A stretch of 32,128 bases of DNA from a virus. This document shows positions 11,720-29,505 of this stretch, in pieces. The translations under genes and the position numbers were made by a program. Below the pieces are notes generated by a model that worked only from the letters and a program-made list of their open reading frames with translations, made no database searches and was not told the DNA's origin. Where the stretch lies: positions 1-32,128 of IMG/VR virus record IMGVR_UViG_3300033553_000304. The stretch is one strand, 5' to 3'. Each line of letters begins with the position of its first letter. Within the stretch, counting starts at the first letter, position 1.

Positions 11720-11771
11720 CCTGAACGGGTTCAGGTCGAATACCGCTTCCCCCCGCCGCTAACCTGCGGCT
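11720..11771 (+). promoter_or_regulatory. Late promoter of the lysis operon (Plys analogue) with activator dyad
   Basis: The dyad CCTGAACGGGTTCAGG (11720-11735) is followed after 24 bases by TAACCT (11760-11765), a -10-like hexamer, and 6 bases later by the ATG of the lysis gene. No -35 box is present. If transcription starts at the ATG, the dyad is centred at -44.5, close to the -43.5 reported for Mor on Mu Pm. The same layout, with identical spacing, precedes the protease gene at 18897. A small hairpin GCCGC/GCGGC (11755-11770) replaces any ribosome binding site. Confidence 0.65.
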
Positions 11772-12233
11772 ATGACAAAATCAACTTCTAATCATCTGTT
11801 TCTGCACCGGGCCTACACCGACCGTGGTGTGTTCGGCAAACTGGTAACACCCCGGCGCAGCTACCACACCCTGGAGCTGCCGTGGCTTAGCAATCGCACC
11901 TCAGTCAGCTGCATTCCCGAAGGCGTGTACCCTCTCGCATTGCGCCGTTCCGGTGTGGTCGAGCGCACCACCGGTGGCCAGTACCGCCATGGCTGGGAAG
12001 TCCAGGGCGTGCTGGGCCGCACCTACATCATGATTCACCCCGCCAACACCATCGGCGATCTGGAAGGTTGCATTGCGCCTGGCCTGTCCACCGGTGTGCT
12101 TCCGGATAACAACCGGGATCCGCAGTGGGCAATCCTCAATTCATTCGCGGCGTTCAAGATGCTGATGGAAGACCTGGAAGCACACGAGGAATGGTTCCTG
12201 GACGTCCGCACGTTTTCACCGGAGTGGCCCTGA
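11772..12233 (+). CDS. DUF5675 family protein, probable lysis/peptidoglycan enzyme
   Basis: A 153-residue protein matching the DUF5675 family often found at the lysis locus of Mu-like phages. It has FLHRAYTDRGVFGKL, the core YHTLELPWLSNRTSVSCIPEGVYPL, and VLGRTYIMIHPANTIGDLEGCIAPG. The IMIHPAN and GDLEGCIAPG blocks resemble the His and Cys motifs of YkuD-type L,D-transpeptidases, so action on peptidoglycan is plausible but unproven. No signal peptide is present, so export would need the holin next door. It has no Shine-Dalgarno sequence before the ATG, which fits a leaderless mRNA. It is the first gene of the late lysis/head operon. Confidence 0.8.
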   Translation: MTKSTSNHLFLHRAYTDRGVFGKLVTPRRSYHTLELPWLSNRTSVSCIPEGVYPLALRRSGVVERTTGGQYRHGWEVQGVLGRTYIMIHPANTIGDLEGCIAPGLSTGVLPDNNRDPQWAILNSFAAFKMLMEDLEAHEEWFLDVRTFSPEWP

Positions 12234-12234
12234 C

Positions 12235-12816
12235 ATGAACTGGAGCTGGGACGGAGTTAGAGAAACGGTTGCCAAAGCCGCACCACTGCTGGGGGCTGCT
12301 TTAGGCGGGCCTGCAGGGGGTGCTGTTGGTGGCCTGATTGCAAGCGCCCTGGGTGTCGAAGAAAAACCGGATGCCATTGCCAAGGCGCTGGAGAATGATC
12401 CGGATGCAATCATCAAGCTGCAGGAACTCCAGAGAACCCACCAGCGCGAGCTGGAGCGGATGCACCTGGAAGCGGAAACCGCCCGCCTGTCTGAAATCAA
12501 CCAGACCATGCGTGCTGAGGCCACTGCGAATGATGGTTATGTCCGCCGCTGGCGTCCGACCTTCGGCTACATGGTGGCTCTGACCTGGCTGGTTCAGTCC
12601 GTTGCGATCGCCTGGGCCATGGTGGCCGAGCCCAAAGAAGCCGCCAACCTGATCAATGCCGTTACCGCACTGACCCCGATGTGGGGCATCGCGCTGTCGA
12701 TTCTTGGTATCAACATCACATCCCGCAGCCGTGACAAGCGAGTTGCCAAAGGCCAGGACGGTCGCGGCCTGCTGGAGAAACTGACGGACGGTCTCGGGGG
12801 TAAAAGCGGTGGATGA
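12235..12816 (+). CDS. Holin-like membrane protein (3TM type)
   Basis: A 193-residue protein resembling the three-TM holin family first described in gene transfer agents. A Gly/Ala-rich hydrophobic segment lies at about 14-40 (APLLGAALGGPAGGAVGGLIASALG). It is followed by a long charged helix (about 50-95, QELQRTHQRELERMHLEAETARLSEI), then YVRRWRPTFGYMVALTWLVQSVAIAWAMV (TM2, about 106-128) and a third helix at about 140-160 (ALTPMWGIALSILGINITS). The basic C-terminus is cytoplasmic. WRPTFGY is a family signature. It would form membrane lesions that time lysis. It lies 1 base after the preceding gene and overlaps the next by 8. Confidence 0.85.
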   Translation: MNWSWDGVRETVAKAAPLLGAALGGPAGGAVGGLIASALGVEEKPDAIAKALENDPDAIIKLQELQRTHQRELERMHLEAETARLSEINQTMRAEATANDGYVRRWRPTFGYMVALTWLVQSVAIAWAMVAEPKEAANLINAVTALTPMWGIALSILGINITSRSRDKRVAKGQDGRGLLEKLTDGLGGKSGG

Positions 12817-13033
12817 AAGCCAGTTTGAACAGGCACAGGCGCTCACTGAGCGCCTGACTCTAGCAGGGATCGAGCAAAGCATGCAGGGCCACCTGGAGCC
12901 ACCTTTGGAAGTGGATGGTCAGCGGATCTGCCTGGGCTGCGAAGATCGATTGAGCCACGCGCGCCTCAAGGCCAACCCCAACGCTGTGCGCTGTGTGGAG
13001 TGCCAGAACGATTGCGACCGCAGGAGGAGGTAA
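12809..13033 (+). CDS. TraR/DksA-type C4 zinc-finger protein
   Basis: A 74-residue protein with an N-terminal helix (FEQAQALTERLTLAGIEQSM) and a C4 zinc finger: Cys41-x2-Cys44 and Cys62-x2-Cys65 in the pattern CLGCEDRLSHARLKANPNAVRCVECQ. This is the short TraR/DksA form that binds the secondary channel of RNA polymerase. Many Mu-like and P2-like phages carry one at the lysis/head boundary. GTG 12809 overlaps the holin stop; the stop overlaps the next ATG (TAATG). An effect on host rRNA or phage late transcription is inferred from the family. Confidence 0.85.
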   Translation: MDESQFEQAQALTERLTLAGIEQSMQGHLEPPLEVDGQRICLGCEDRLSHARLKANPNAVRCVECQNDCDRRRR

Positions 13034-13419
13034 TGGATTTACCGCAGTTCGATTACGAAGCCGCCAAGTTCTGGATGGGCTTTCTGCAGTTGGCCGGATT
13101 GGTTGCTCTCGGTTTCTACACCCATATGACGAGCAAATCCAAGGCAAATTCCAGCGCCATTAACACCGTTCGCGAAAACCTGACGAGCGATATTGAGGAC
13201 CTGGAGGATCGAGTAAAACGCTGTGAACAGCGTCAGGATTTGCTGGAAGGCCAGCAATCAGGCGCCCCGAACCACGGTGATCTCTCGAAGATGTATGAGC
13301 GGCTTAATGATGTAGCGCAGGATCTTTCCGGGCTCAGCGGTCAGATCTCAGCGTTATCTCGCCAGTTGTCGATGGTGAATACCTACCTGCTGAACAACAA
13401 GGGAGAGCAACCCAAATGA
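13033..13419 (+). CDS. DUF2730-like protein (Mu gp25 position), TM plus coiled coil
   Basis: A 128-residue protein with one transmembrane helix at about 14-32 (WMGFLQLAGLVALGFYTHM). A long heptad-like coiled coil follows (about 50-75, NLTSDIEDLEDRVKRCEQRQDLLEG), and a second at about 90-120. This is the pattern of DUF2730 proteins encoded just before the gp26/gp27 genes in Mu-like phages; some relatives are thought to be spanin-like or lysis accessory proteins. The start is fixed by AGGAGGAGG 3-11 bases before ATG 13033; a longer frame from 13000 has no such site. Confidence 0.78.
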   Translation: MDLPQFDYEAAKFWMGFLQLAGLVALGFYTHMTSKSKANSSAINTVRENLTSDIEDLEDRVKRCEQRQDLLEGQQSGAPNHGDLSKMYERLNDVAQDLSGLSGQISALSRQLSMVNTYLLNNKGEQPK

Positions 13420-13715
13420 GCTACCAGGACTTTCAGACCGAAGGTCGCCGTCTGGGGATTCTGCGGATTCTCGCGCGGCGTAACCTGTTCACCTCCAACG
13501 AATACAGCCTGAACGATGAGCTAGGCGGGAACTACGGCCACCACGTCAGCAAGGACCTGCTGCACAGTGATATCGCCTGGCTTGAAGAGCAGAACCTGGT
13601 GGTTTGCCAGCAGCCCCGGGCTGGATGGGTTATTACCCTTACCAGCCGGGGCAGCGACGTGGCCGATGGGCGAGCCCGCGTACCGGGTGTCGCCCAGCCA
13701 CAACCGGGGGACTAA
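13416..13715 (+). CDS. Mu gp26-like protein (VpaChn25_0724-type family)
   Basis: A 99-residue protein resembling the phage family often annotated VpaChn25_0724. The N-terminal region RRLGILRILARRNLFTSNEYSLNDELGGNYGHHVSKDLLHSDIAWLEEQNLV looks like a winged-helix fold, and WVITLTSRGSDVADGR closes it. The fold is similar to MarR/PadR DNA-binding domains, but its place among packaging genes (immediately before gp27 and the terminase) suggests a role there rather than in regulation. It overlaps the previous gene by ATGA. Confidence 0.78.
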   Translation: MSYQDFQTEGRRLGILRILARRNLFTSNEYSLNDELGGNYGHHVSKDLLHSDIAWLEEQNLVVCQQPRAGWVITLTSRGSDVADGRARVPGVAQPQPGD

Positions 13716-13718
13716 ATC

Positions 13719-14267
13719 ATGCCACCTCGCTCCAAAATCTATGATCTGCCCCAGAACCTTCGTGAGGAACTGAATGAGCGTCTGGTCAACACCGGCTTCC
13801 AGGATTACGACGGCCTGACCGACTGGCTGGAAGATCGCGGCTTTAAACTCTCACGTTCCGCTGTCCATCGTTACGGCCGTGGCCTCCAGGAGGAATTCGA
13901 GGAAGCCATGGGCGACGTGCGTAAGACCACGGAGCTGGCCCGGGCCATGACCGCCGAGAACGACGACGAGAGCGGCCACCTGATAGATGCGACCGCCCGG
14001 ATCGTCCAGGACCAGCTGCTTCGCATCACCATCGCCATGCGCAAAGCGGAGCACGAACCGGAGACTGCCGCCAAACACCTCAGCAGCGTGACCCGCGCCC
14101 TGGCGGACATCGGCCGAGTATCTTTGGGTCAGAAGAAGTGGGCCCGGGAACTTCGCCAGGAGGTCGCCAAGGAAGCAGCCGATGCAGCGGAAACCAGCAT
14201 GGCCAGCCAGGGCATGACCCGCGAATCCATCGACGCCATCAAGCGTGACATCCTGGGGATTGCCTGA
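13719..14267 (+). CDS. Small terminase-like protein (Mu gp27, DUF3486)
   Basis: A 182-residue protein of the DUF3486 family. The opening SKIYDLPQNLREELNERLVNTGFQDYDGLTDWLEDRGFKLSRSAVHRYGRGL is the family signature and contains an HTH that could bind the pac site. A helical region follows (about 65-150) with QLLRITIAMRKAE and KHLSSVTRALADIGR. Adjacent to the large terminase and overlapping it by 1 base (TGATGG), it is the likely small subunit, which recognises the left end of the prophage for headful packaging. Confidence 0.88.
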   Translation: MPPRSKIYDLPQNLREELNERLVNTGFQDYDGLTDWLEDRGFKLSRSAVHRYGRGLQEEFEEAMGDVRKTTELARAMTAENDDESGHLIDATARIVQDQLLRITIAMRKAEHEPETAAKHLSSVTRALADIGRVSLGQKKWARELRQEVAKEAADAAETSMASQGMTRESIDAIKRDILGIA

Positions 14268-15781
14268 TGGCCACCGAATTGCCGGACTCTGTTCTTCTGC
14301 CGTATCAGAAGGCGTGGATTGAAGACGATTCAGAACTCAAGATTGCCGAGAAGAGCCGGCGAACCGGCCTTACCTGGGGCGAAGCTGCAGACGCGGTACT
14401 CACGGCCAGTGCCTCCAAGGCCGCCGGCGGTACCAACCACTTCTATGTGGGCTCCAATAAAGAGATGGCCATCGAATTCATAGACGCCTGCGCCATGTGG
14501 GCGCGGGCCTTCGACAAGGCCGCTTCCACCATCCAGGAAGAAGTGCTGAAAGATGAGGACAAGGACATCCTCACCTTCAATATCCACTTCGCCAGCGGCT
14601 TCAAGATCCAGGCGCTGTCCAGTCGCCCAAGCAACCTGCGCGGCCGCCAGGGTAACGTCACTATTGACGAGGCCGCCTTTCACGCGGAGCTGGCTGAAGT
14701 ACTCAAGGCAGCGCTGGCGCTCACCATGTGGGGCGCCAAGGTGCGCCTGATCAGCACCCACAACGGCGTCGAAAACATATTCAACGAACTGATCCAGGAC
14801 AGCCGGGCCGGCAAGAAACGCTACAGCGTGCACCGGCTGACGCTGGACGATGCCTGTGATCAGGGCCTGTACCAGCGTATCTGCCAGGTGCGTGGCAAGC
14901 CCTGGAGCGCCGAAGCAGAGAAGCAGTGGAAAGAGAACCTGCTGAAAGACACTGCCACCCGCGAAGACGCCATGGAGGAATACTACTGTGTTCCGAAATC
15001 CGGCGGCGGTGCTTATATCTCCCGTGGCCTGATCGAAGCCCGCATGATTGAAGCGCCCGTGGTGCGGTACGAAGGCACTGCCGAGTTCAACGCCTGGCCG
15101 GAACACCTGCGCAAAGCGGAAGTGCACGACTGGTGCGAGAGCGTGTTGCTGCCCCTGCTGCAAACACTGAACCCAGAGAACCGCCACTGCTTCGGCGAGG
15201 ACTTTGGCCGCAGCGGCGACTTGACCAGCATCGCCCCCATGGAAATCACGCAGCAGCTCAAGCGCCGGGTGCCGTTCCTGGTGGAGTTGCGCAACGTGCC
15301 GTTCAAACAGCAGGAACAGATCCTGTTCTACATCGTCGACCGTTTGCCAAAACTGCAATACGGCGCGCTGGACGCCCGGGGCAACGGCCAGTATCTGGCG
15401 GAACAGGCGCAATACCAATACGGCTCGGAGCGTGTTGAGGCTGTCATGCTCTCTCAGGCCTGGTATCTGGAGACCATGCCCCGGTTCAAGGCGGCCTTCG
15501 AGGATGACGGCATTGAGATCCCCAGGGACAGCGACGTGCTGGACGACTTGCGCGCCCTGCAGGTGATCAGAGGCATTCCCAAACTGCCGGACGCCAAGAC
15601 GGGCGATGACAAGAAACGCCACGGTGACTCCGCGATCGCACTGGCCATGGCGTACTACGCCAGCTTCCAACAGGCCGCCCTGGAATACGGCTATGAAGCC
15701 ATTCGCTCCGGCCCCGACCACACTCACCACCGGCCGGTGCGTGCCACCGCCGGTTTCCGTAACCGAGGAGGACTGCTGTAA
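14267..15781 (+). CDS. Large terminase (Mu gp28 type)
   Basis: This 504-residue protein is the ATP-driven DNA packaging motor and nuclease. Seen in sequence: a deviant Walker A, KSRRTGLT (about 29-36), Walker B VTIDEAAF (about 131-138, with D134 E135), and coupling motif STHNG (about 163-167). The C-terminal RNase H-like nuclease has Asp312 in EDFGRSGDLT, Asp369 in LDARGNG and Asp454 in GDSAIA. Length and order match Mu gp28. It overlaps the portal gene by one base (TAATGG), as in a tightly packed late operon. Confidence 0.95.
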   Translation: MATELPDSVLLPYQKAWIEDDSELKIAEKSRRTGLTWGEAADAVLTASASKAAGGTNHFYVGSNKEMAIEFIDACAMWARAFDKAASTIQEEVLKDEDKDILTFNIHFASGFKIQALSSRPSNLRGRQGNVTIDEAAFHAELAEVLKAALALTMWGAKVRLISTHNGVENIFNELIQDSRAGKKRYSVHRLTLDDACDQGLYQRICQVRGKPWSAEAEKQWKENLLKDTATREDAMEEYYCVPKSGGGAYISRGLIEARMIEAPVVRYEGTAEFNAWPEHLRKAEVHDWCESVLLPLLQTLNPENRHCFGEDFGRSGDLTSIAPMEITQQLKRRVPFLVELRNVPFKQQEQILFYIVDRLPKLQYGALDARGNGQYLAEQAQYQYGSERVEAVMLSQAWYLETMPRFKAAFEDDGIEIPRDSDVLDDLRALQVIRGIPKLPDAKTGDDKKRHGDSAIALAMAYYASFQQAALEYGYEAIRSGPDHTHHRPVRATAGFRNRGGLL

Positions 15782-17349
15782 TGGCCGAATCACTTATTGT
15801 GGACGCACACGGCCGTCCGATCCGGAAGGCCGAACTGAAGAAAGAGCTGGCCGCGCCATCACTCACCGGCGTTCGCCAGGTGTGGCACAACGGCATCGCC
15901 AGTCACCTGACCCCGGACCGCTTGGGAATGATCCTGCGGGCGGCCGAGAACAACGATGGCCACGACTACCTTACCCTGGCCGAGGAAATGGAAGAGCGCG
16001 AGCCGCACTACGCCTCTGTTCTGGGTACCCGAAAGCGCGCCGTCAGCGGCCTGGACGTGGTGGTGGAATCCGCCACCGATGAACCGGCGGACGTGCGCCT
16101 GGCCGATGCGGTGCGAGACCTGGTGCGGGATGCGGTATTCGGCGACCTCGTCGAGGATCTGCTCGACGCCCTGGGCAAGGGCTACTCTGTCTCCGAGATC
16201 ATGTGGAATACCCGGGGCGGCCAGTGGTGGCCACGGGAATACGTCTGGCGGGATCCGCGCTTCTTCCGGTTCGACCAGGCCACCGGCCGTGAACTGCGGC
16301 TGATCGATCAGAACAACGTCGCCAACGGCGTGGCCCTGGCCCCGTACAAGTTCATCGTTCACCGCCCCCGGTTGAAGGCTGGCATCCCGCTGCGCGGTGG
16401 CCTGGCTCGACTGGTCGCCGTGTCGTACATGGCCAAGAGCTACACACTGACCGACTGGCTGGCGTTCGCCGAGGTTTTCGGCATGCCGCTGCGCCTGGGC
16501 CGCTATAACGACGCCGCCAAGCCGGAAGAGGTGGACATCCTGCGTGCGGCCGTGGCCAACCTGGGCTCTGATGCGGCCGCCATCCTGCCCGAAGGCATGA
16601 AGATCGAGTTCCAGGAAATTGCCAACACCCAGGGCGGTGCCGATCTGTTCAAGGGCCTGGCCGAGTGGATCGACAAACAGACCAGCAAGGCGGTGCTGGG
16701 CCAGACCATGACCACGGACGACGGTTCCAGCCAGGCACAGGCCACCGTTCACAACGACGTGCGCGAAGACATTCAGCGGGCGGACGCGCGCCACCTCGGC
16801 GTGAGTCTGAATCGTGACCTGGTCAAGCCGTTCATCGACCTGAACTACGGTGTGCAGCGCCGGTACCCGACGATCAGAATCAACGTCCCTGAGCCGGAAG
16901 ATCTCAAGCAGCTGGTCGATGCACTGGAGCGGCTGGTACCGCTGGGGCTGAAAGTTGAAACCTCCGTGGTTTCCGACAAGCTTGGCCTGCCAGATCCGGC
17001 CAAAGGTGCGGACATTCTCATGCCTGAACAGCAGGTGTTAACCAGCGTTGAATCCGCCAGTAACCGATCTTTAAAGACCGCTCAAAACCGCGAATCCGTG
17101 GTCAACGAAAGCGAGCCCGACTTTGCAGAAATCGCTGAGGCAGAGGATGACTGGCAGGTACAGCTGGCCCCGCTGGTGGATCCGATCGAACGCCTGGCGC
17201 AACGCGTAGCCGAGGAAGGCGGCAACGAGGACGACTTCCTCGCTCGTCTGGGCGAAGTACTCGCCGAGATGGACGAGACCGAACTGGTCCGTCGCCTGGC
17301 GTCCAGCACCTTCAAGGCCCGGGGCCTGGGCGATGCGAGGGATGACTGA
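15781..17349 (+). CDS. Portal protein (Mu gp29, DUF935)
   Basis: A 522-residue protein forming the dodecameric ring at the head vertex through which DNA enters. DUF935 features include LTPDRLGMILRAAENNDGHDYLTLAEEMEEREPHYASVLGTRKRAVSGL, then GKGYSVSEIMWNTRGGQWWP, FRFDQATGRELRLID, SYTLTDWLAFAEVFGMPLRLGRY and KAVLGQTMTTDDGSSQAQATVHNDVREDI. The C-terminal 90 residues are acidic and variable. It overlaps the MuF-like gene by one base. Confidence 0.95.
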   Translation: MAESLIVDAHGRPIRKAELKKELAAPSLTGVRQVWHNGIASHLTPDRLGMILRAAENNDGHDYLTLAEEMEEREPHYASVLGTRKRAVSGLDVVVESATDEPADVRLADAVRDLVRDAVFGDLVEDLLDALGKGYSVSEIMWNTRGGQWWPREYVWRDPRFFRFDQATGRELRLIDQNNVANGVALAPYKFIVHRPRLKAGIPLRGGLARLVAVSYMAKSYTLTDWLAFAEVFGMPLRLGRYNDAAKPEEVDILRAAVANLGSDAAAILPEGMKIEFQEIANTQGGADLFKGLAEWIDKQTSKAVLGQTMTTDDGSSQAQATVHNDVREDIQRADARHLGVSLNRDLVKPFIDLNYGVQRRYPTIRINVPEPEDLKQLVDALERLVPLGLKVETSVVSDKLGLPDPAKGADILMPEQQVLTSVESASNRSLKTAQNRESVVNESEPDFAEIAEAEDDWQVQLAPLVDPIERLAQRVAEEGGNEDDFLARLGEVLAEMDETELVRRLASSTFKARGLGDARDD

Positions 17350-18623
17350 TGGCCAACTTTAAGGCTGGCCCGGTACCGCGTAACGCCCTGGCGTATTTCC
17401 GCGACAAGGATCTGCGCGTTGGTTTTGATTACCAGGATGTGTGGGGCCGGGAACACGCCCACGCCTTCACCGTGGCCAAGGCCATGAAGCTGGATATTCT
17501 GGATGATATCCGAGCCGGACTGGACGAGGCGCTGGCCGAGGGTAAGACCTTCCGGGATTTCTCCCGGGAGCTGAAACCGAAGCTCCAGGAGAAAGGCTGG
17601 TGGGGCATCAAAGAGGAACTGGACCCGAGCACCGGCGAACGCCGCCCGGTGCAGTTGGGTTCGCCCCGCCGGCTGAAAACCATCTATCAGTCAAACCTGC
17701 GCAGCGCCCGATCGGCTGGCCAGTGGCAGAGAATTCAGCGCACCAAGGAAACCCAGCCCTTCCTGCTGTATGAGCTGGGCCCCAGCGAGAACCACAGGCC
17801 GGAGCACGTCTCTTGGGCGGGTACGTTGCTGCCCGTGGATCACCCCTGGTGGCAGAGCCACATGACGCCCAACGGCTACGGCTGCAAGTGCCGGGTACGC
17901 CAGGTGTCTGAGGTGGAAGCCGAGCGGATGGAGCGGGAAGGCATCCAGGATCCACAGGCGGAATTGGAAACCGACCCGGAAACAGGCCTGCCCACCGGCC
18001 GTCGCCAACGCCGCACCATGCCAGTCCGCCGCGAGGCGCCGCCCACGCGAACACTTAGCTTCACCAATAGGCGCACTGGTGAGATCACGCAGGTAGACCA
18101 GGGCCTGCATCCCGCGTGGGCCAGCAACCCGGGGCAGGATCGTGTGCGCATACTGCGGGACCGGATGACCGGCAAGCTGGACACTGTCGACCAGCGACTG
18201 GCCCAGGCGACCACACAGGACGTAATGGACAGCCCGATCCTGACCGACTGGCTACGCCGCCCGGATGGCGAGCTGCCAGCAGGTGTCATTGAACGCCGTG
18301 CTCAGACAGCCCTTGGCGCTGACACTCAGGTGGTGCGGTTGGCGCCTGGTCGCCTGCCGGATCCGGACGGCCTGGCGGTGGAGGATTACCGGCAGCTGCC
18401 AGGCGTGATCTCCCAAGGTATACTGATCGCCCGGGACGATAACAGCCTTTCAGTGTTCCGAAGCCGTGAAGGCGACACCGGCAATCCCTGGTGGCTGGCC
18501 ACGGTCCAGCGCAGCGGTGACTACCAGCGTCTGTACCTCACCGACTATCGTGTGGCCACCGACGAAGACCTGGAACAGGCCCGCAGTCGCGGCCAGGTGA
18601 TCCGAGCCTCAGAACAGCTCTGA
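17349..18623 (+). CDS. MuF-like head morphogenesis protein with C-terminal possible nuclease domain
   Basis: A 424-residue protein of the Mu gp30/F family, a minor head protein injected or assembled near the portal. The MuF signature is at about 149-184: HRPEHVSWAGTLLPVDHPWW, then HMTPNGYGCKCRV. A proline/arginine-rich linker follows (about 205-245). The C-terminal part, about 275-413, is a separate alpha/beta unit (LPGVISQGILIARDDNSLSVF, then WWLATVQRSGDYQRLYLTDY). It resembles the phage Barnase-EndoU-ColicinE5-RelE-like (PBECR) domains found at the end of many MuF proteins; I cannot pick out catalytic residues. The last gene of the first late operon before a terminator-like region. Confidence 0.88.
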   Translation: MANFKAGPVPRNALAYFRDKDLRVGFDYQDVWGREHAHAFTVAKAMKLDILDDIRAGLDEALAEGKTFRDFSRELKPKLQEKGWWGIKEELDPSTGERRPVQLGSPRRLKTIYQSNLRSARSAGQWQRIQRTKETQPFLLYELGPSENHRPEHVSWAGTLLPVDHPWWQSHMTPNGYGCKCRVRQVSEVEAERMEREGIQDPQAELETDPETGLPTGRRQRRTMPVRREAPPTRTLSFTNRRTGEITQVDQGLHPAWASNPGQDRVRILRDRMTGKLDTVDQRLAQATTQDVMDSPILTDWLRRPDGELPAGVIERRAQTALGADTQVVRLAPGRLPDPDGLAVEDYRQLPGVISQGILIARDDNSLSVFRSREGDTGNPWWLATVQRSGDYQRLYLTDYRVATDEDLEQARSRGQVIRASEQL

Positions 18624-18844
18624 TCTGGTCAACTTTTGCTCACACTGTAGAACGCTCTCAGAAGCGCCAGAAGGCCGCTAACTGATACAGAGCTACCATG
18701 GCCGGGGTCAAACCCCGTTCGTCGTTTTTAAATGGGCGTTAAATGGGGTCTTGGCGATTGCCAACCACTGGCCGAGTCCGATAACCTGTTTCTACCGGTA
18801 CCTCCCTGGTTCCGTTTTCGCTCTCCCTCCTGATTGAATTTCCC
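18624..18844 (+). other. Intergenic region between MuF-like and protease genes
   Basis: No gene is seen in this 221-base stretch. It holds a terminator-like hairpin (listed separately) and an imperfect 11-bp tandem repeat, TTAAATGGG at 18728-18736 and 18739-18747. It leads into the dyad and late promoter of the protease gene. Base composition is lower in GC than the genes either side. Confidence 0.6.
18703..18729 (+). terminator. Rho-independent terminator-like hairpin after MuF gene
   Basis: CGGGGT (18703-18708), loop CAA and ACCCCG (18712-18717) make a 6-bp stem, followed after 7 bases by TTTTT (18725-18729). The gap between stem and T run is longer than normal, so efficiency may be modest. 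It separates the lysis/packaging operon from the head operon that starts at 18897. Confidence 0.5.
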
Positions 18845-18896
18845 CCTGAAGCCCTTCAGGCCCTTGTGCTGATTGGCCTGCCGCTAGTCTGGCGGC
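18845..18896 (+). promoter_or_regulatory. Late promoter of head operon (PI analogue) with activator dyad
   Basis: The dyad CCTGAAGCCCTTCAGG (18845-18860), then 24 bases, then TAGTCT (18885-18890), then 6 bases to the ATG at 18897. Dyad-to-hexamer and dyad-to-ATG distances are identical to those at 11720-11772. The bases just before the ATG also match in shape (GCCGCTAgtctGGCGGC against GCCGCTAacctGCGGCT). No -35 box and no Shine-Dalgarno sequence. Mu has its C-dependent PI promoter at this same place. Confidence 0.65.
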
Positions 18897-19928
18897 ATGG
18901 AAAAAACAAACGCACTCCGCTCCGGCCTTGCCAAGGCCCTGAACACCGAACCGACACTGGGCCAAGGCCTGGCGCTGAACGTTGAGCTGCCAGTTGAACT
19001 GCCAGCTGGAGAAGCCCCGGATTGGGTAGAGCTGCTGCCAGCCGGTGACATCGTTATGGGCCGGGATGGCCGCACCTGGCGCAACAGCAATCCCCAGGGT
19101 GTGGTTGAGCAGTACATTGCCCGCAACGTCGACCTGGTCATTGACTGGGAGCACGCCAGCGAGCACCGCGCCCCGAATGGCCAGGACGCTCCGGCTGCAG
19201 GCTGGGTCAAGGAACTGGCGGTTCGCGACGGTGCCGTATGGGGCCGTGTGGAATGGACTGAGAAGGCTGCCGGCCAGCTCCAGCGCAAAGAATACCGCTA
19301 TCTCTCCCCCGTTTTTCTCTACACCAGCGATGGAAACCAGGTCTTTCGGCTTGCCAGCGCGGGCCTGACCAATCAACCCAACCTAGAGCTTAAGGCTCTT
19401 AACCAGCAAACCCACCAGGAGGAATTCCCCGTGTGGAAACAACTGCTCAAGCGGCTGGGTCTACCCGAAGACGCGACTGAGGAACAGGCAATTACTGCCC
19501 TCAATCAAGTTCAGGACGACCTGAAGACCGCAAAAAATCGGGAGTCGAACCCGAGTCTCGAAAAATACGTGCCCCGTGCTGACTTCGACCAGGCCCAGAG
19601 TCGCGCCGCCAATGCGGAGCAGAAGCTGGAAACCCTGAAGAAGGAGCGCGAGGACGAGGCCATCGATACTGCCATCAACCAGGCACTGGAAGACGGCAAG
19701 ATCGCACCGGCCACCGTGGACTACCACAAGGCACAGTGCCGCACCGAAGGCGGGCTGGAGCGCTTCACGAAGTTTGTGGAAGGCGCACCGGCAATCACCG
19801 GTGACTCAGGACTGGAAGGTCGCAAGCCGCCCGGATCCGAGAAGGCGCTCAACACCGAGACCCTCAAGATTGCCGGCATGTTTGGCAACTCTGAAGAGGA
19901 CCTCAAGAAATTCGGAGGGGTCAACTGA
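18897..19928 (+). CDS. I: Prohead protease with C-terminal scaffold (Mu gpI type)
   Basis: A 343-residue protein of the Mu I family: N-terminal serine-type maturation protease and C-terminal scaffold. The protease part covers about 1-170 (LPAGDIVMGRDGRTW, VEQYIARNVDLVIDWEHASEH, AAGWVKELAVRDGAVWGRVEWT, KEYRYLSPVFLY, ASAGLTNQPNLELKAL); the His in WEHAS and Ser in RLASAGLTN are candidate catalytic residues. From about 180 the protein is a charged coiled-coil scaffold with FDQAQSRAANAEQKLETLKKERED. A second, independent start for the scaffold lies at 19431. The ATG has no ribosome binding site, as expected from a leaderless late transcript. Overlaps the next gene by one base. Confidence 0.92.
   Translation: MEKTNALRSGLAKALNTEPTLGQGLALNVELPVELPAGEAPDWVELLPAGDIVMGRDGRTWRNSNPQGVVEQYIARNVDLVIDWEHASEHRAPNGQDAPAAGWVKELAVRDGAVWGRVEWTEKAAGQLQRKEYRYLSPVFLYTSDGNQVFRLASAGLTNQPNLELKALNQQTHQEEFPVWKQLLKRLGLPEDATEEQAITALNQVQDDLKTAKNRESNPSLEKYVPRADFDQAQSRAANAEQKLETLKKEREDEAIDTAINQALEDGKIAPATVDYHKAQCRTEGGLERFTKFVEGAPAITGDSGLEGRKPPGSEKALNTETLKIAGMFGNSEEDLKKFGGVN
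19431..19928 (+). CDS. Internal in-frame start giving scaffold protein (Mu gpZ analogue)
   Basis: GTG 19431 (Val179 of the protease) is preceded by a perfect AGGAGG (19417-19422) at 8 bases, a better site than the full gene has. Translation from here gives a 165-residue protein MWKQLLKRLGLPEDATEEQA onward, made of the coiled-coil scaffold region only. Mu and lambda make their scaffold this way, from a nested start inside the protease gene. The strength of the site and its exact position at the domain border make this convincing, though expression is inferred. Confidence 0.85.
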   Translation: MWKQLLKRLGLPEDATEEQAITALNQVQDDLKTAKNRESNPSLEKYVPRADFDQAQSRAANAEQKLETLKKEREDEAIDTAINQALEDGKIAPATVDYHKAQCRTEGGLERFTKFVEGAPAITGDSGLEGRKPPGSEKALNTETLKIAGMFGNSEEDLKKFGGVN

Positions 19929-21789: not shown

Positions 21790-21790
21790 T

Positions 21791-22207
21791 ATGGCTGTCT
21801 ACGCCACGCTTCAGGATCTGATCGACCGCTTCGGGAACGACGCCGTTCTCGTGGCGTCCGATCGGGACCGGGACGGCCAGATGGACAGGGACGTTGTCGA
21901 CAAGGCGCTGCTGGATGCGGATGCGGAGATCGACACCTACGTGGGCCAGCAGTACAAGCTGCCACTGCCCACGGTGCCCCGCATACTCACCAAGCTGGCC
22001 GTAGACATCGCCTTTCACGTGCTGTCACCAGAGGCGGACACCGCCACCGAACACCGGCGCGGTCGATATGACAACGCCATTGCCCTGTTGCGCCGGATCG
22101 CCAAGGGCGAAGTTAGCCTGGGCATCCGGGAGCAAAGCCCGGTCAGCATCAAACCGCAGATCACGTCCCGCGCTCGTCGCTGGGGCCGGGACCGGAGGCT
22201 GACGTGA
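21791..22207 (+). CDS. Head completion protein, DUF1320 (Mu gp36)
   Basis: A 138-residue protein with the DUF1320 opening MAVYATLQDLIDRFGNDAV and middle KALLDADAEIDTYVGQQYKLPLPTVPRILTKLAVDIAFHVL. The fold is helical like gp6/gp15-type connector adaptors, so a role at the head-tail junction is likely. Its GTG/TGA overlap with the next gene shows tight coupling. Confidence 0.9.
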   Translation: MAVYATLQDLIDRFGNDAVLVASDRDRDGQMDRDVVDKALLDADAEIDTYVGQQYKLPLPTVPRILTKLAVDIAFHVLSPEADTATEHRRGRYDNAIALLRRIAKGEVSLGIREQSPVSIKPQITSRARRWGRDRRLT

Positions 22208-23198: not shown

Positions 23199-23404
23199 TG
23201 ACTGTGAGCAAAGAGACCATCTACGTAAAACCCCGCCAGGGCCTGCGCATTCGCCAGGAGAATGGCAGGCCATTGCCTGAAGACGGCGGCCAGGTGCTTC
23301 TGAATTCGTTCTGGCGCCGGCGCCTGCGTGACCAGGACGTTGTGGCCGCCCAGGCCCCTCGCAAGCCCAAGGCGAAAGCCAAATCCACCGATCAGGAGTC
23401 ATAA
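23198..23404 (+). CDS. DUF2635 small protein (Mu gp38)
   Basis: A 68-residue protein of the DUF2635 family found between gp37 and the sheath in Mu-like phages: ETIYVKPRQGLRIRQENGRPLPEDGGQVLLNSFWRRRLRDQDV. The Lys-Pro, Gly-Arg-x-Leu-Pro and Trp-Arg-Arg-Arg pattern is characteristic. The C-terminal tail is basic. Start may be ATG 23198 or GTG 23204. Function unknown. Confidence 0.85.
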   Translation: MTVSKETIYVKPRQGLRIRQENGRPLPEDGGQVLLNSFWRRRLRDQDVVAAQAPRKPKAKAKSTDQES

Positions 23405-23407
23405 ACG

Positions 23408-24898
23408 ATGGAGATCAGTGCCGGTATCTATAACCAAATCCCCGCTGCATTGCGGGTGCCTGGTGTTTACATCGAGTTCGATGACCGCCTGGCAGGGAAC
23501 TCCGCCTTTCAGGGCCGCCTTCTGGTACTGGGCCAGCGCCTAGCCACCGGTGAGCGAAACGCCCTGGAACTGGATCGCGTTACCAACGCCGAACAGGCGG
23601 AACGTTTCTACGGCCGTGGCTCCATGCTGGCCGAAATGCTGCGCCACTCGCTGAATGCCCAGCCGTACCTTGAGACCTGGGCTCTGCCCCTGGATGATGT
23701 GGAGTCCGCTTCAGGTGGTGTGAAGGCCACCGGCAAGATCGCCCTCGTCGGCAGTGCCGTCAGTGCCGGCGCGATGGTGCTGTATATTGCGGGCTACCGC
23801 GTGCGCATTGGCGTGGCGGCAGCCGACACCGCTGACGTCATCGCTCAGGCTCTGGTGGACGCCATCAACGCCGATTCCCGTCTGCCGGTTACCGCTACTG
23901 TAAATGCCACGGTCACGTCCGAAGTGGACCTGGAATGCCGGTGGACCGGGGAGACGGGCAACGACATCGACATCCGGTTCTCCGCCCTGGGTGAAGACCG
24001 CATCGCCGGGATTGTGCCGACCATCACCACGATGGCCGACGGTGCGAGCAACCCGGACCTTGTCGACGCCATCGCGGCCCTGGGCCCGGAGCAATACAAC
24101 TGGATTGCCTGCCCCTACACTGACACGGCCAACCTCACCGCGCTCAAGGATGAACTGGACGATCGCTTCGGCCCCATGCGTCAGATCGGCGGCCGTGCCT
24201 TCGCTGCTTTCCGTGGCACCCACGGCGAAACCGGAACCTTCGGGGGCAACCACAACAGCCCACACCTGACCGTAATGGGTACCAGCAAGGCGATCAGCCC
24301 CACCTGGTTGTGGTGCGCCGTGAATGCGGCCGTCGCTGGCCAGGCGCTGGCCATCGACCCGGCACGGCCGCTGCAAACCCTGCAGCTGCCAATGATCTTG
24401 GGGCCAAAGGAAGCGGACCGGTTCACCGATACCGAGCGCAACCTGTTGCTGTACGACGGCATCGCCACGTTCAAGGTGGCCAACGACGGAACCGTAAGCA
24501 TCGAGCGCCAGATCACCACCTTCCAGGAAACCGACGCCGGCGTGGCCAGCGACTCGTACCTGGACATCAACGTGGCCGAAACCCTGGAGCGGATCCGTTA
24601 TGACCAGCGCGCCCGCATCCTGCAGCGCTTCCCCCGCCACAAGCTGGCCGAGGATGCGGATGCCGACAACTTCGGCGCCGGCCAGCCGATCGTCACGCCC
24701 AACGTGGCCAAGGCCGAGCTGCTGAGCCTGTACCGGGATTTCCTAAGCCGGGGCTGGGCTCAGGACTACGCTGGCTACGCCGAATCCCTGGAGGCGGCGA
24801 TCGACACCGAGAATCCGGGCCGGTTGAACGTCATTGATTCACCCAAGCTGGTTGGCCAGTACCGCGTCCACGCCATGCAGACACAGTTCCGGAAGTAA
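23408..24898 (+). CDS. L: Contractile tail sheath protein (Mu gpL)
   Basis: A 496-residue sheath subunit, the length of Mu L (495). It has IPAALRVPGVYIEFDDRLAGNSAFQGRLLVLGQR, a central ALGPEQYNWIACPYTDTANLTALKDELDDRFGPMRQIGGRAFAA, GTHGETGTFGGNHNSPHLTVMG, FKVANDGTVSIERQITTFQ and YLDINVAETLERIRYDQRARILQRFPRHKLA. The sheath contracts to drive the tube through the envelope, so the phage is a myovirus. Confidence 0.96.
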   Translation: MEISAGIYNQIPAALRVPGVYIEFDDRLAGNSAFQGRLLVLGQRLATGERNALELDRVTNAEQAERFYGRGSMLAEMLRHSLNAQPYLETWALPLDDVESASGGVKATGKIALVGSAVSAGAMVLYIAGYRVRIGVAAADTADVIAQALVDAINADSRLPVTATVNATVTSEVDLECRWTGETGNDIDIRFSALGEDRIAGIVPTITTMADGASNPDLVDAIAALGPEQYNWIACPYTDTANLTALKDELDDRFGPMRQIGGRAFAAFRGTHGETGTFGGNHNSPHLTVMGTSKAISPTWLWCAVNAAVAGQALAIDPARPLQTLQLPMILGPKEADRFTDTERNLLLYDGIATFKVANDGTVSIERQITTFQETDAGVASDSYLDINVAETLERIRYDQRARILQRFPRHKLAEDADADNFGAGQPIVTPNVAKAELLSLYRDFLSRGWAQDYAGYAESLEAAIDTENPGRLNVIDSPKLVGQYRVHAMQTQFRK

Positions 24899-24900
24899 GC

Positions 24901-24929
24901 CTTAAAGGGCTGCATAAACCCGGTTTAAG
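24901..24929 (+). other. Hairpin between sheath and tube genes
   Basis: CTTAAA (24901-24906) pairs with TTTAAG (24924-24929), and inside it TAAACC (24915-24920) with GGTTTA (24922-24927); these are alternative stems that cannot both form in full. It lies before the tube ribosome binding site (GGAG). It may protect tube mRNA or set the sheath/tube ratio, but no T run follows. Confidence 0.35.
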
Positions 24930-24946
24930 ACAGGAGTAAACCCGTT

Positions 24947-25300
24947 ATGAAGATCACCGGCAACGTGAAGATTCGGGAAGGTGGCCAAGAGCTGCTGACC
25001 AACGGCAAGGGCACCCTCAACCCAGGCGGGTTTGAGCGTGAGACCAAGCTGAACGGCCGCCGCGCAGTGGGCTATACCGAAAACCCGGTAGCGCCCACCC
25101 TGAGCGTGGTGGTGCATCACACGGCAGATACCGACATCGTGCGGCTGTCTAACCTTACGGATGCCACCATCATCCTGGACACCGACACCGGCCAGACATG
25201 GATGCTGCGTGGTGCCTTCACCACAAGCCCCACACCGTTGGATGTGGGCGCGGGTACCGTGCAGCTTGAAATGTCCGGCCTGGCATTGGAGCGTGTGTAA
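24947..25300 (+). CDS. M: Tail tube protein (Mu gpM)
   Basis: A 117-residue tube subunit (Mu M is 118). It begins MKITGNVKIREGGQELLTNG and continues with KGTLNPGGFERETKLNGRRAVGYTENPVAPTLSVVVHHTADTDIVRLSNLTDATIILDTDTGQTWMLRGAFTTSP, a beta-sandwich pattern typical of the family. Sits right after the sheath, and its stop overlaps the next start (TAATGG). Confidence 0.94.
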   Translation: MKITGNVKIREGGQELLTNGKGTLNPGGFERETKLNGRRAVGYTENPVAPTLSVVVHHTADTDIVRLSNLTDATIILDTDTGQTWMLRGAFTTSPTPLDVGAGTVQLEMSGLALERV

Positions 25301-25680
25301 TGGCTGAGCTAACAGTGGAACTTGAGATGGGCCTGGTGGTGGGTGATAAAACCTTGAAAACGGCGGTGATTCGGGAGCTCACTGCTGGTGACATCTTCGA
25401 TGCTCAGGCTGATTCTGAGCGTGTTGTGCATACCGAGGACGGCCCGCAGTTGGTGGCCAGCCCCAGTGCTGTCGGTATCCATACATTGCGCCGGCAGGTC
25501 GCCAGAATCGGCAATGTAGAGGGCCCGCTGTCTCTGGCGGAAATGCGCAAGCTGCACCCAATCGATCTGGAGTTGTTGCATGAGGAGTGCAGCAAACTGG
25601 AACAGGCGGTGATCACCTCCATTGCGTCCCGCGAGGTGGCGCAGCGGGGGCGAGCTGATGAGGGCCAGGCCAAACCTTGA
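25300..25680 (+). CDS. Tail assembly chaperone, upstream frame (Mu gp41)
   Basis: A 126-residue protein of the Mu gp41/lambda G position: MAELTVELEMGLVVGDKTLKTAVIRELTAGDIFDAQADSERV, then HTLRRQVARIGNVEGPLSLAEMRKLHPIDLELLHEECSKLEQAV. It coats the tape measure before tube assembly. A -2 frameshift at about 25645-25653 (CGGGGGCGA) would extend it with the next frame; unshifted ribosomes stop at 25680. Confidence 0.9.
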   Translation: MAELTVELEMGLVVGDKTLKTAVIRELTAGDIFDAQADSERVVHTEDGPQLVASPSAVGIHTLRRQVARIGNVEGPLSLAEMRKLHPIDLELLHEECSKLEQAVITSIASREVAQRGRADEGQAKP

Positions 25681-25795
25681 ACGTGTGACCGTGCGGGTTG
25701 CCCGTGCCACTGGCTGGGCCCCGCATGACATCGACCGCCTGCCCCTTCGCCGCCTTATAACCACCCTCCGAATCGCGAGCGAATCCCATGAGTGA
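25649..25795 (+). CDS. Tail assembly chaperone extension produced by -2 frameshift
   Basis: The slippery CGGGGGCGA (25645-25653) lies near the end of the gp41 frame. Slipping back two bases puts ribosomes in the frame that reads GELMRARPNLERVTVRVARA and ends HE at 25795, 8 bases into the tape measure gene. The same frame also has an ATG at 25658, but with no ribosome binding site. The overlap, position and G-run match the -2 shift reported for Mu itself (Mu uses GGGGGGCGA), where most tail phages use -1. The fusion would be about 165 residues. Not in the simple frame list because it is short. Confidence 0.75.
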   Translation, partial: GELMRARPNLERVTVRVARATGWAPHDIDRLPLRRLITTLRIASESHE

Positions 25796-27677
25796 AATGA
25801 AGGCCAGTGTTGCCCTTAACCTAACCGGTAATTTCGAGCAGCGCGCGGAGCGCTATGGTCGGGCCGTTGGTTCCTTCAGCCGTTCAAGCGAACGCCACCT
25901 TGGTCGGGTGCGCCGTTCCGCCCAGATGGTCGGGCGCGGCCTGGATGCCATGGGCAACCGCTACACAGCATTGATCACAGGCGTCGCCGGCATCGGTACT
26001 CTGCGTTCCTTGACCCAGATGGAAGAGCGGTTCACCCGGCTGGGCATCCAGGCCAACAAGTCCGAAGAGGAAATGGAAGGCCTGCGCCGGAAGATCTTCG
26101 AGACAGCCCGGGCCCCGGAAATCCGGGTTGATCCCTCCCAGATCACCAGCGCCATTGAGTCTATCGTCGAGAAGACTGGCGACCTGGAATTCGCCCAGGA
26201 GAACATCCGCAATATCGGCCTGGCCATTTCCGCCACAGGCGCGGCCGGGCAGAACATCGGCGAGATTATGGCCGAGTTCCAGAAAATGGGCATAAAGGAT
26301 TCTGCGGAAGTGATCCGCGTGCTGGACACGCTAAACCAGCAAGGTAAGGAAGGCGCGTTCACACTTCAGAATCTTGCCGCATTGGGCCCGCGAGTCGTTA
26401 CTGCGTACACCGCGATGGGGCGCGAAGGTGCCGGCGCCATCAAAGAAATGGGCGCTGCTCTGCAGGTAATCCGAATGGGTACGGGCAGCTCCGAGCAGGC
26501 TGCAACTGCCTTTGAGGCGTTGCTACGCACCCTCCAGAACGCCGATAAGGTGAAGTCGCTTCAAGCTGGGGGTATCCAGGTATTTGATCCCGAAGAGCTC
26601 GAGAAAGGCCGCCAGGTGTTGCGCCCGATCAACGAACTAATGGTTGAGATCATCCAGGCTGTGGATGGGCAAACCACTCGGCTATCGACCATATTCGATG
26701 CTGAGGCAATGCGTTCCTTTAACGCGGCTGCCGGTGAGTTTATGCGCACTGGTTCAGTAAATAGTTTGGAAAGGTTCATGAACGTCCAGGGCGATGGTTC
26801 GGCCACCATGAAGGACTCGGCCAGGGCTGCCGATACGATGGCAGGCGCGATGCGAAACCTGACATCTGCCTGGACGAACTTTGCTGATGAGAACATGACC
26901 GGAGCCGTTCAATCGGCCGCTGACGCACTTAACAGCCTGGACCAGGAAACGGTCGATCGCTGGCTAAAGATTGGCGGCATTGCCCTTGGTGGCCTGGGGC
27001 TGGCAGTCGGTGGTCGGTTCCTGGGTAAGCTGGGTGCAGACTATGTTGGCGCTGGCAGGAGAATGTTAGGGCGTCGTCAAGGCGGTGGCGTTGCTGGTGC
27101 CCTCGGAGGGGCAGTCGCTGGCGCTACGCCGATTCCCGTTTACGTTGTTAATCTGCCAGGCATGGGAGGGCAAGGTGGATTCGGGCGCGGAGGAAGAGGC
27201 GCTGGTGGGCGCTCTCGCCGGATCTTTAATCCGATGAAGAACCTAGGTAAAGCTCCTGTCGGTTCTATTGGGGCTTTGGGGGCGGGCGCGCTCGGTACCG
27301 CAGGCCTTGCAGTGGGAGCGGCAGGCGCTGCTGGCTACGGTGCAGGGTCTCTGGCCAGCAATTACCTACTTACAGATCAGGGGTTGCTCGGCTCTAAATT
27401 CGGCAAAGCGACCGGCGACCTGATCGGCGAATCCCTAGCCAGGGCACTTGCAAAGGTAGGTGTAGAAGACGCAAAAAATGCAACGCGCCTTCTTGATCCC
27501 AGAGACAATCTTGAAGACGAGGGGGCAAGATTGGCAGAACTCTCGCGCCGCAACCCCAACATGGGAACCCTCAACATCAAATTCGAGGGAGGACGGCTGG
27601 TTGATATTTCCGCAGAAAAGAGCCCCGAAGGTCCCGATCTTGATATCGACCTCGGAATATCGGGTTTAGTGCCATGA
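25788..27677 (+). CDS. Tape measure protein (Mu gp42 type)
   Basis: A 629-residue tape measure that sets tail length. The N-terminal 400 residues are helical with family blocks (RYTALITGVAGIGTLRSLTQMEERFTRLGIQANKSEEEMEGLRRKIFE, QNIRNIGLAISATGAAGQNIGEIMAEFQKMGIK). A hydrophobic, Gly-rich stretch follows from about 395 to 515, with at least two possible membrane-spanning segments (IGGIALGGLGLAVGG and GALGAGALGTAGLAVGAAGAAGYGAGSL). The last 100 residues are charged. It is short for a tape measure (Mu 42 is about the same). Its stop is only two bases from the stop of the opposing cargo gene. Confidence 0.93.
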   Translation: MSEMKASVALNLTGNFEQRAERYGRAVGSFSRSSERHLGRVRRSAQMVGRGLDAMGNRYTALITGVAGIGTLRSLTQMEERFTRLGIQANKSEEEMEGLRRKIFETARAPEIRVDPSQITSAIESIVEKTGDLEFAQENIRNIGLAISATGAAGQNIGEIMAEFQKMGIKDSAEVIRVLDTLNQQGKEGAFTLQNLAALGPRVVTAYTAMGREGAGAIKEMGAALQVIRMGTGSSEQAATAFEALLRTLQNADKVKSLQAGGIQVFDPEELEKGRQVLRPINELMVEIIQAVDGQTTRLSTIFDAEAMRSFNAAAGEFMRTGSVNSLERFMNVQGDGSATMKDSARAADTMAGAMRNLTSAWTNFADENMTGAVQSAADALNSLDQETVDRWLKIGGIALGGLGLAVGGRFLGKLGADYVGAGRRMLGRRQGGGVAGALGGAVAGATPIPVYVVNLPGMGGQGGFGRGGRGAGGRSRRIFNPMKNLGKAPVGSIGALGAGALGTAGLAVGAAGAAGYGAGSLASNYLLTDQGLLGSKFGKATGDLIGESLARALAKVGVEDAKNATRLLDPRDNLEDEGARLAELSRRNPNMGTLNIKFEGGRLVDISAEKSPEGPDLDIDLGISGLVP

Positions 27678-27679
27678 AC

Positions 27680-28180
27680 TTATTGATGGATATCGGGTGC
27701 TCTGCCTTCCTCAATTTTGAGAATCTTTACAGAAGAGCTTCCAGCACTAGCAGGCTTAATCACGTAGAGCATCGTCACATCATGGTTGGAGAAATAGAAC
27801 GACTCCCAATGATGGGGCTCTCTCATACTGGCATACATGGACTGCTGATTCTCTGGATCCCCTTCGGTAGAGAAATTAAGCATTTCGTAGTGGCCTGCAG
27901 CACCGATTTCGTTATTGCGTTTGCTCTCAGCCCATTCACGATAGCCGTAGGTCTTGTCGTAATCCATACCAATTTCAGCCGCCAGGTTGCGATATTCTTC
28001 AACCTTCTCTGGATCAAAGGCCAATCGCTTAGCCGTAGCTGGATGATCGTTTACCGCCTGGACCTCCTTAGGCATCAACTGACGATCATCGGCTCTGACG
28101 GAAACAAAATGAGCGTTTGCGACGAGGACGATGAAGGTGGCAAGGAAGGCGAAAGTGACAGCTTTAAATCTTTGCAACAT
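27680..28180 (-). CDS. Secreted/periplasmic cargo protein on the opposite strand
   Basis: A 166-residue protein with a signal peptide, MLQRFKAVTFAFLATFIVLVANAHF and a cleavage site likely at SVRA-DD (about residue 30). No family is recognised. The mature part is acidic and helical, with FDPEKVEEYRNLAAEIGMDYDKTYGYREWAESKRN, then YEMLNFSTEGDPENQQSMYASMREPHHWESFYFSNHDVTMLYVI, which looks like a small beta sheet. The ribosome binding site AGGAG is 7 bases before the ATG. It is more AT-rich than its neighbours, faces against the tail genes and interrupts the Mu order between tape measure and N, so it is a late insertion (moron). Only 34 bases separate its start from the divergent N gene, so its promoter must lie inside N. 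Confidence 0.82.
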   Translation of the reverse strand: MLQRFKAVTFAFLATFIVLVANAHFVSVRADDRQLMPKEVQAVNDHPATAKRLAFDPEKVEEYRNLAAEIGMDYDKTYGYREWAESKRNNEIGAAGHYEMLNFSTEGDPENQQSMYASMREPHHWESFYFSNHDVTMLYVIKPASAGSSSVKILKIEEGRAPDIHQ

Positions 28181-28187
28181 ACCGTTT

Positions 28188-28206
28188 CTCCTGTTTTTAA
28201 AAGGAG
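28188..28206. promoter_or_regulatory. Back-to-back ribosome binding sites forming an inverted repeat
   Basis: CTCCT (28188-28192) is the minus-strand Shine-Dalgarno of the secreted cargo gene and AGGAG (28202-28206) is the plus-strand site of the N-like gene. Together, with an AT-rich centre, they form a 5-bp inverted repeat. There is little room for any promoter between the two ATGs (28180 and 28215). Confidence 0.6.
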
Positions 28207-28214
28207 CCTAACAC

Positions 28215-29378
28215 ATGGCTTGGTCTGATCGTATTGGCGAAGCAATGGCCACCTTCCGTGGCATTGAGATTTACCTGGAACGCACAAGCCAGGTGCCTGG
28301 CCGCCGGGTGGAAGTTCACGAATACCCGCTGAGGGACCAGCCCTACGCCGAGGATCTCGGCCGCAACAAGCGCGAATGGCAGATTGAAGGCTTCCTGATC
28401 GGGCCGGACTACGACATCACGCGCCAGCGTCTTGTCGACGCCGCCGAAACACCAGGTGCAGGTGAACTGGTGCACCCATACTACGGAACACATCAGGTTG
28501 TCCTGGTCGGCGGCATGCGGATCCGCGAAAGCACGCGTGAGGGAGGCATTGCCCGCGTATCTTTTACCGTGGTCCGTGCCGACGACGAGCCGCGATTCCC
28601 TCGGGTTACTCAGGACACCCAGCGCCAGGTGCAGCGCACTGTGGCAGTAGCCGAACAGGCCGTACTCGATGACTTCGTGGAAAACTTCAACATCCTGGAG
28701 CTGGCCACCGATCGTGTGGCGGCCATCGAGAAAAGTTTGCAGACGGCCATTGAGGGAATCGAAAGCGCGGTGGGCGATGTCTCCGGACCGATATCGGCGC
28801 TGATCCGAAGCCCCGCCGAGCTGGGTGCGCAGATTCTGGAAAGCATCGCCTCGGTTCGTGACTTGCTAAACGAGCCAGGCCGTGCCCTGGCTGTATACGA
28901 TGACCTGTTCAGCGCCGGCGATGAACCACCGGTGACCTCTCCCCTGGATCCGGAACCTCGGCAGTTGCAGATGGCGGCTATCCGTGCCGGCAACAACCTG
29001 GTGCGGCGGGCGGCCGTGCTGCAGTCGGCCCGGGTGGCGGCTGGCACTGACTGGGCCGCAGCCGACGACGCCATTGGCGCCAGGGACACCATCACTGCCG
29101 GCATTGAGCTGCAGCTGACCTCCGAATTCATTCCCGCCAACGACGTGTATGCAAGCCTGACCGCCGTCCGGGCGGCGGTAGTGCGGGATTTGGAACAGCG
29201 CGGGGCCCAGCTTCCCCGTCTGCGTTCCGTGACCCTGCAGCAGCCGCTACCCGCTCTGGTGGTGGCACAGAAACTCTACGGGGATGCAGGCCGCGCCGAT
29301 GAGATTATCAGCCGCAATCGGGTAGCACACCCGGGCCGGGTACCGGCGGGCGAAGCACTGGAAGTATTGGGGGAATAA
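28215..29378 (+). CDS. N: DNA circularisation/injection protein N (Mu gp43)
   Basis: A 387-residue protein of the Mu N family, a tail protein that is injected with DNA and non-covalently circularises it. Family start: MAWSDRIGEAMATFRGIEIYLERTSQVPGRRVEVHEYPLRDQPYAEDLGRNKREWQIEGFLIGPDYDITRQRLVDA. It then has ELVHPYYGTHQVVLVG. The long middle is Ala/Arg-rich and helical, and the C-terminus RNRVAHPGRVPAGEALEVLG resembles a LysM-like tail-tip domain. The AGGAG site is 9 bases before the ATG. Confidence 0.93.
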   Translation: MAWSDRIGEAMATFRGIEIYLERTSQVPGRRVEVHEYPLRDQPYAEDLGRNKREWQIEGFLIGPDYDITRQRLVDAAETPGAGELVHPYYGTHQVVLVGGMRIRESTREGGIARVSFTVVRADDEPRFPRVTQDTQRQVQRTVAVAEQAVLDDFVENFNILELATDRVAAIEKSLQTAIEGIESAVGDVSGPISALIRSPAELGAQILESIASVRDLLNEPGRALAVYDDLFSAGDEPPVTSPLDPEPRQLQMAAIRAGNNLVRRAAVLQSARVAAGTDWAAADDAIGARDTITAGIELQLTSEFIPANDVYASLTAVRAAVVRDLEQRGAQLPRLRSVTLQQPLPALVVAQKLYGDAGRADEIISRNRVAHPGRVPAGEALEVLGE

Positions 29379-29387
29379 GGAAACAAG

Positions 29388-29433
29388 GCTGAAGGGCTTC
29401 AGGCCCAAGGCTACTGCGTGATCAGGCCACCAT
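29388..29433 (+). promoter_or_regulatory. Candidate late promoter upstream of P gene (PP analogue)
   Basis: The dyad GCTGAAGGGCTTCAGG (29388-29403) has the CTGAA-N4-TTCAG form of the other two. At the same spacing as in those, 24 bases on, lies CACCAT (29428-29433), a weaker -10 that keeps the A2 and T6 positions. The ATG of P is 102 bases away, so this mRNA would have a leader. Mu has its PP promoter at this place. Weaker than the first two sites but the position is telling. Confidence 0.5.
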
Positions 29434-29502: not shown

Positions 29503-29505
29503 CAC

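Follow-up and report, generated by a model that had tools for sequence, protein, structure and literature searches.

A predicted single-activator late regulon in a Mu-like phage, with two candidate promoters placed on start codons

The stretch of DNA analysed here (the window) is the whole of IMG/VR record IMGVR_UViG_3300033553_000304, 32,128 bases of a Mu-like phage that infects marine bacteria. Its genes run in the order transposase A, B, a Mor-family gene, lysis, terminase and portal, protease I, tail and P (Table 1), and the record stops short of the phage's right end. Among named relatives the nearest is the complete Alteromonadaceae phage B23 (KY939598, 35,132 bases), which has the same genome plan, a Mor protein 95% identical to that of the window and a protease 83% identical. 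The early operon carries a Type II hammerhead ribozyme (7172-7236, plus strand; Rfam RF02276, 72.9 bits) that is also present in B23, L004 (two copies), L005, L009, L094 and Pseudomonas phage MP22 (L092 8315-8386), and this spread marks it as a conserved element that the early transcript carries ahead of mor. Two minus-strand genes (10093-11558), of 174 aa (membrane-like) and 314 aa, lie between mor and the lysis promoter; they have no matches in Pfam, NCBIfam or PADLOC, are absent from the B23 annotation, and are probably a moron or accessory cassette.

Table 1. Genes and predicted regulatory features of the window
Feature	Position	Strand	Remarks
Transposase A	2467-4440		
B	4454-5476		
Mor/C-family late activator, 131 aa	9209-9604	+	Last early-block gene; PF08765, PHROG 836
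Lysis-promoter activator dyad (Plys-like, predicted)	11720-11735	+	Exact palindrome CCTGAACGGGTTCAGG; same place in all near relatives
Lysis -10-like hexamer TAACCT	11760-11765	+	6 nt before ATG 11772; predicted +1 at 11771-11772
First lysis-block gene (DUF5675)	11772-12233	+	PF18925; predicted leaderless
Protease-promoter activator dyad (PI-like, predicted)	18845-18860	+	Exact palindrome CCTGAAGCCCTTCAGG
Protease -10-like hexamer TAGTCT	18885-18890	+	6 nt before ATG 18897; predicted +1 at 18896-18897
Head maturation protease gene I	18897-19928	+	PHROG 328, E 2.2e-92; predicted leaderless
P-promoter activator dyad (PP-like, predicted)	29388-29403	+	Within clade-specific intergenic insert
P -10-like hexamer CACCAT	29428-29433	+	Same spacing to the dyad as for lysis and protease; predicted +1 near 29440
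Predicted P-transcript leader	29440-29505	+	Hairpin 3' arm includes the Shine-Dalgarno sequence
Gene P (baseplate hub)	29506-30561	+	PHROG 177, E 9.4e-122; leadered

The product of the Mor-family gene matches Pfam PF08765 (E 8.5e-11; 42.3 bits, cut-off 24.9) and PHROG 836 'late transcriptional activator' (E 8.4e-38), and its family profile matches the Mu C structures 9l0x/9vw8 at E 1e-4. One Mor/C gene was found in the window and one in complete B23, and neither contains the paralogous Mor and C pair of a Mu-type middle-late relay. With PF08765, a single gene was detected in 26 of 35 records and two genes in none, so the second Mor/C gene that the sequence-only reading had named as evidence against itself did not appear. 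That reading had also proposed that the Mor-C relay was collapsed here; the single Mor/C gene agrees with this, but the state is not peculiar to this phage, since transposable phages with a single Mor are already annotated (KS10, B3 and the D3112 group). No dyad that might serve self-activation was found upstream of mor itself. Some genomes from the order of Marinobacter halodurans (G164, G136 and G070) have three to six Mor-like genes of ~131 aa; a single downstream region was inspected per genome, and CTGAA dyad promoters were not seen there.

Motif search confirmed that the window holds three exact copies of CTGAA-N4-TTCAG, at 11721-11734, 18846-18859 and 29389-29402, which lie respectively before the lysis block, the head protease gene and P. 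By arithmetic, ~0.03 exact copies are expected per 32 kb; the control pattern, reversed but not complemented, has no match in the window, and at up to two mismatches there are 21 matches where 12.2 are expected. At full 16-bp length the lysis and protease dyads are perfect 7-N2-7 palindromes, and the P dyad is 6-N2-6 with G/G as its outermost pair. Each of the three -10-like hexamers starts 25 bases past the end of its dyad, again as first described. The hexamers are weak or imperfect, CACCAT at P especially, which recurs at identical spacing in the D3112-type protease promoter. The idea that the dyads form an RNA hairpin or terminator was rejected, because the loop would be 2 nt and a T-run is absent.

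The same sites recur in relatives, as the earlier reading had asked of related phages. B23 has three exact dyads at the three places known from the window, in a record without annotated promoters, and at up to one mismatch it has six motif matches against 0.72 expected, a number reached in none of 100 shuffles. IMG/VR relatives with a 73-90% identical protease have a site at both the lysis and the protease gene, some of these in less symmetrical form (for example CTGAACCCTCTCAG), and so do L032, L034, L035, L044, L048 and L054/L055, whose proteases are 45-57% identical and whose DNA is elsewhere barely alignable to the window. Throughout the group, protease-carrying relatives keep the protease dyad, exact or diverged, and CTGAAYTAGTTCAT stands at the equivalent place in L067 and L072 (protease 33-37% identical). 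Prophages name Marinobacter halodurans (L094) and Dyella (L097) as hosts. Scanning genome contigs for the motif gave four loci, and order-wide genome searches gave held-out prophages, most of them with other Mor types and without the CTGAA dyad. When the viral collection was scanned strictly for the whole pattern, 56 stretches had the right spacing and 28 a control spacing; many of these hits are due to chance, and members were not counted from them. The compared sites are not all independent in ancestry. The fourth copy expected near the right end is absent from complete B23 and from another relative, G002 (36,414 bases). In G015 an exact dyad does lie close to the right end and was considered as a fourth site, but it has no properly placed -10 and looks like chance.

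The most regular property of the sites is their distance from the start codon. In the window, the 14-bp dyad ends 37 nt short of the ATG at the lysis and protease genes alike. Across the group the distance is 36-38 nt, nearly always 37, at protease sites and at many lysis sites; 34 compiled sites have 36-38 nt, in a list partly selected by this very distance. Retabulating all dyads in the relatives without that condition gave a clear mode at 36-38 nt, which takes in the protease sites and many lysis sites; distances of 103-127 nt, with no ATG at 36-38 nt, apply to lysis in L044, L048 and L097 and to the P site. The end of the -10-like hexamer falls 6-7 nt before the ATG. If the ATG is taken as +1, the 16-bp dyad occupies -52 to -37 with its centre at -44.5, a geometry that fits binding by Mor, as the Mor dyad of Mu occupies -51 to -36 with its centre at -43.5 (PMC4287176). 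Together, the position of the -10 and this Mu Mor-like geometry point to a transcription start on the first base of the start codon or one base before it.

Translation signals at these genes are consistent with such a start. Shine-Dalgarno pairing to the 16S tail is +1.9 kcal/mol at the lysis gene and -1.5 kcal/mol at the protease gene, against a B23 median of -6.9, and the two genes rank as the weakest and second weakest among the 47 annotated forward genes of B23; pairing at ATG 29506 of P is -9.2 kcal/mol. G is scarce in the first codons (0.14 across the sites, 0.24 in B23 genes) and the starts are weakly folded, both uncorrected for relatedness and G+C. The lysis and protease genes combine three features expected of a leaderless unit: a -10 placed 6-7 nt before the ATG, a fixed spacing and no Shine-Dalgarno sequence. 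The predicted leaderless arrangement is not general and does not extend to the more distant lysis and P sites above. Mu and YPCBV-1 keep leaders; in YPCBV-1 the dyads of the two genes have diverged, the expected start lacks an ATG, and the protease gene has a Shine-Dalgarno sequence. Many sites also have a G+C inverted repeat flanking the -10, with a mean stem of 4.3 compared with 3.8 after arms are swapped between sites (p 0.0005, uncorrected for relatedness). On a read-through transcript this repeat would fold just before the ATG, and any role for it is speculation.

A site profile was built from 21 sites, with both the lysis and the protease site of the window inside the training set; these score 50.7 and 54.6, respectively, and the P dyad and the window background score near -5. 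Held-out genomes gave their two best scores at the lysis and protease genes: 29.1 and 26.2 in the Marinobacter records L018/L094, where the next score is -3.8; 19.9 and 4.8 in L021; and 12.2 and 3.9 in L245, where the second lies at 36 nt, one base out of register. L255 scored 35.1 at one of the two genes. All of these held-out matches are placed at the ATG or one base off. The profile found no recognisable dyad sites in Mu or in the single-Mor phages B3, KS10, TJ1, Kp4852-3 and SuMu, and the CTGAA dyad therefore marks a subgroup of single-Mor phages.

The P site seems to have a different history from the other two. It does stand before gene P, but the claim that it lies exactly where Mu has PP holds only in that sense, because the dyad sits within a 146-bp N-P intergenic stretch present in the B23 group alone. 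This stretch is 99% identical across five B23-group phages, whose P proteins are 95-97% identical, and most other relatives in which both genes were found have little or no N-P gap. It looks like a recent insertion that came with a promoter, rather than a remnant of Mu PP. The predicted P leader contains a strong G+C hairpin (by eye, about 29474-29502, plus strand), and translational control through it is possible.

Taken together, a single-activator late regulon is well supported by these sequence features. The proposal that one Mor drives the late promoters gains from the single Mor gene, from dyads conserved at the lysis and I promoters and from the Mu Mor-like geometry. We consider it likely that the three dyads are the sites of the sole Mor, that late transcription starts directly, and that the lysis and protease mRNAs are leaderless and the P mRNA leadered. 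Under this model, the Mor/C-family protein would be made as the final product of the early operon, bind as a dimer ~44 bp upstream of the start site at promoters that have no -35 element, and recruit or activate the host sigma-70 polymerase. Late transcription would then begin without a middle stage or a separate C. At the lysis and protease genes, with the -10 ending 6 nt before the ATG, it would start on the ATG or one base before it and yield a leaderless mRNA, and the P mRNA would carry a leader of ~65-80 nt with a normal Shine-Dalgarno sequence.

The same activator could also serve promoters whose lysis and protease mRNAs are leadered, with the start further upstream or the -10 unused, and with translation proceeding without a Shine-Dalgarno sequence through S1 or an unstructured start. 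Mu and YPCBV-1 have leaders at the matching genes, and the -10 hexamers are imperfect, yet a leader needs no fixed distance, and 36-38 nt is kept at the protease sites of distantly related phages, with the hexamer where Mu Mor geometry would place it; we regard this alternative as unlikely. The identity of the protein on the dyads is a separate matter. The outer bases of LexA boxes are similar to CTG...CAG, and binding of the dyads by Mor is a prediction; a host or other phage regulator, such as a repressor of the SOS type, might occupy them and leave the Mor-like protein to act elsewhere. The spacing here, however, is CTG-N8-CAG and not N10, and the sites occur at late operons only, for which reasons a LexA-type host regulator was rejected; they also sit where Mor geometry would place them. 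Phages of the CTGAA group have LTERRVWEIL, or a sequence near it, in the recognition-helix region of Mor, whereas in L042 and L053 the helix differs (ITQRTVFYRQ) and so does the dyad, CGAACCTTGTTCG, which stands at a similar distance from the start codon of the protease (by eye). L033, whose Mor differs again, has TATCAAGCCCTTGATA in the same place (by eye). That the dyad changes when the helix changes fits Mor as the binder, without proving it. We judge another regulator very improbable. Scarcely credible is an origin of the dyads by chance or by shared ancestry of short DNA without a regulatory role: palindromic ten-base words are short and near relatives are almost identical in DNA, but the dyads persist in phages that are otherwise unalignable, the held-out profile matches fall exactly at both promoters, and right spacings outnumber control spacings in the viral collection.

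Late expression in Mu uses two activators and leadered mRNAs. Its C-activated late promoters, Plys, PI, PP and Pmom, likewise depend on a Mor/C-family activator and a dyad, lack a -35 element, and stand before the lysis, protease and P genes, where the window has its three exact sites. The window phage differs in having no separate C and no Mor-C relay, in its dyad sequence, in the absence of a mom-type site (B23 and G002 were searched, as the window itself ends before the right end), and in lysis and protease genes predicted to be without the leaders that Mu has. Mu Pm, activated by Mor, has its dyad centre at about -43.5 with a -10 only and no -35 element, as here (PMC4287176); the Mor-like protein of the window would, by contrast, directly drive the late operons.

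What is new would be a variant of the known Mor/C late switch with predicted leaderless late mRNAs. Our search of the open-access literature found no leaderless late mRNAs of Mu-like phages and no mapped late start sites of single-Mor transposable phages; for D3112-like phages, KS10 and Fc02, the passages searched refer to Mor or to promoters that are predicted. If true, a one-step switch whose promoters coincide with start codons would give a late programme simpler than that of Mu, and it would be unusual for major late operons to be expressed from leaderless mRNAs. Perhaps, and we offer this only tentatively, transposable phages form a large group, with hosts ranging from Marinobacter to Pseudomonas and Dyella, in which the activator site is tied to start codons so that the lysis and capsid operons are made leaderless; the G+C repeat around the -10 could then block read-through translation until the late promoter fires. 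The dyad-37-ATG pattern may also serve as a sequence sign by which late operons can be found in uncultured phages.

The same arrangement is predicted in the Casadabanvirus phages MP22 and DMS3 (D3112-like), which makes the idea quickly testable in a standard laboratory host. Like the window phage they have a single activator of the PHROG 836 type, and TTGAA half-dyads lie 36-37 nt from the ATG of both the lysis and the protease genes; they differ in being siphoviral, in a -10 of CACSAT and in a degenerate right half of the dyad. The promoter placement would also correct their protease start codons. Protease homology between MP22 and the window begins upstream of the annotated start at 18778, and the only in-frame upstream start is ATG 18652, which matches the promoter placement; the head protease genes of MP22 (L092 18652) and DMS3 (L186 10038) are probably annotated 126 nt too short.
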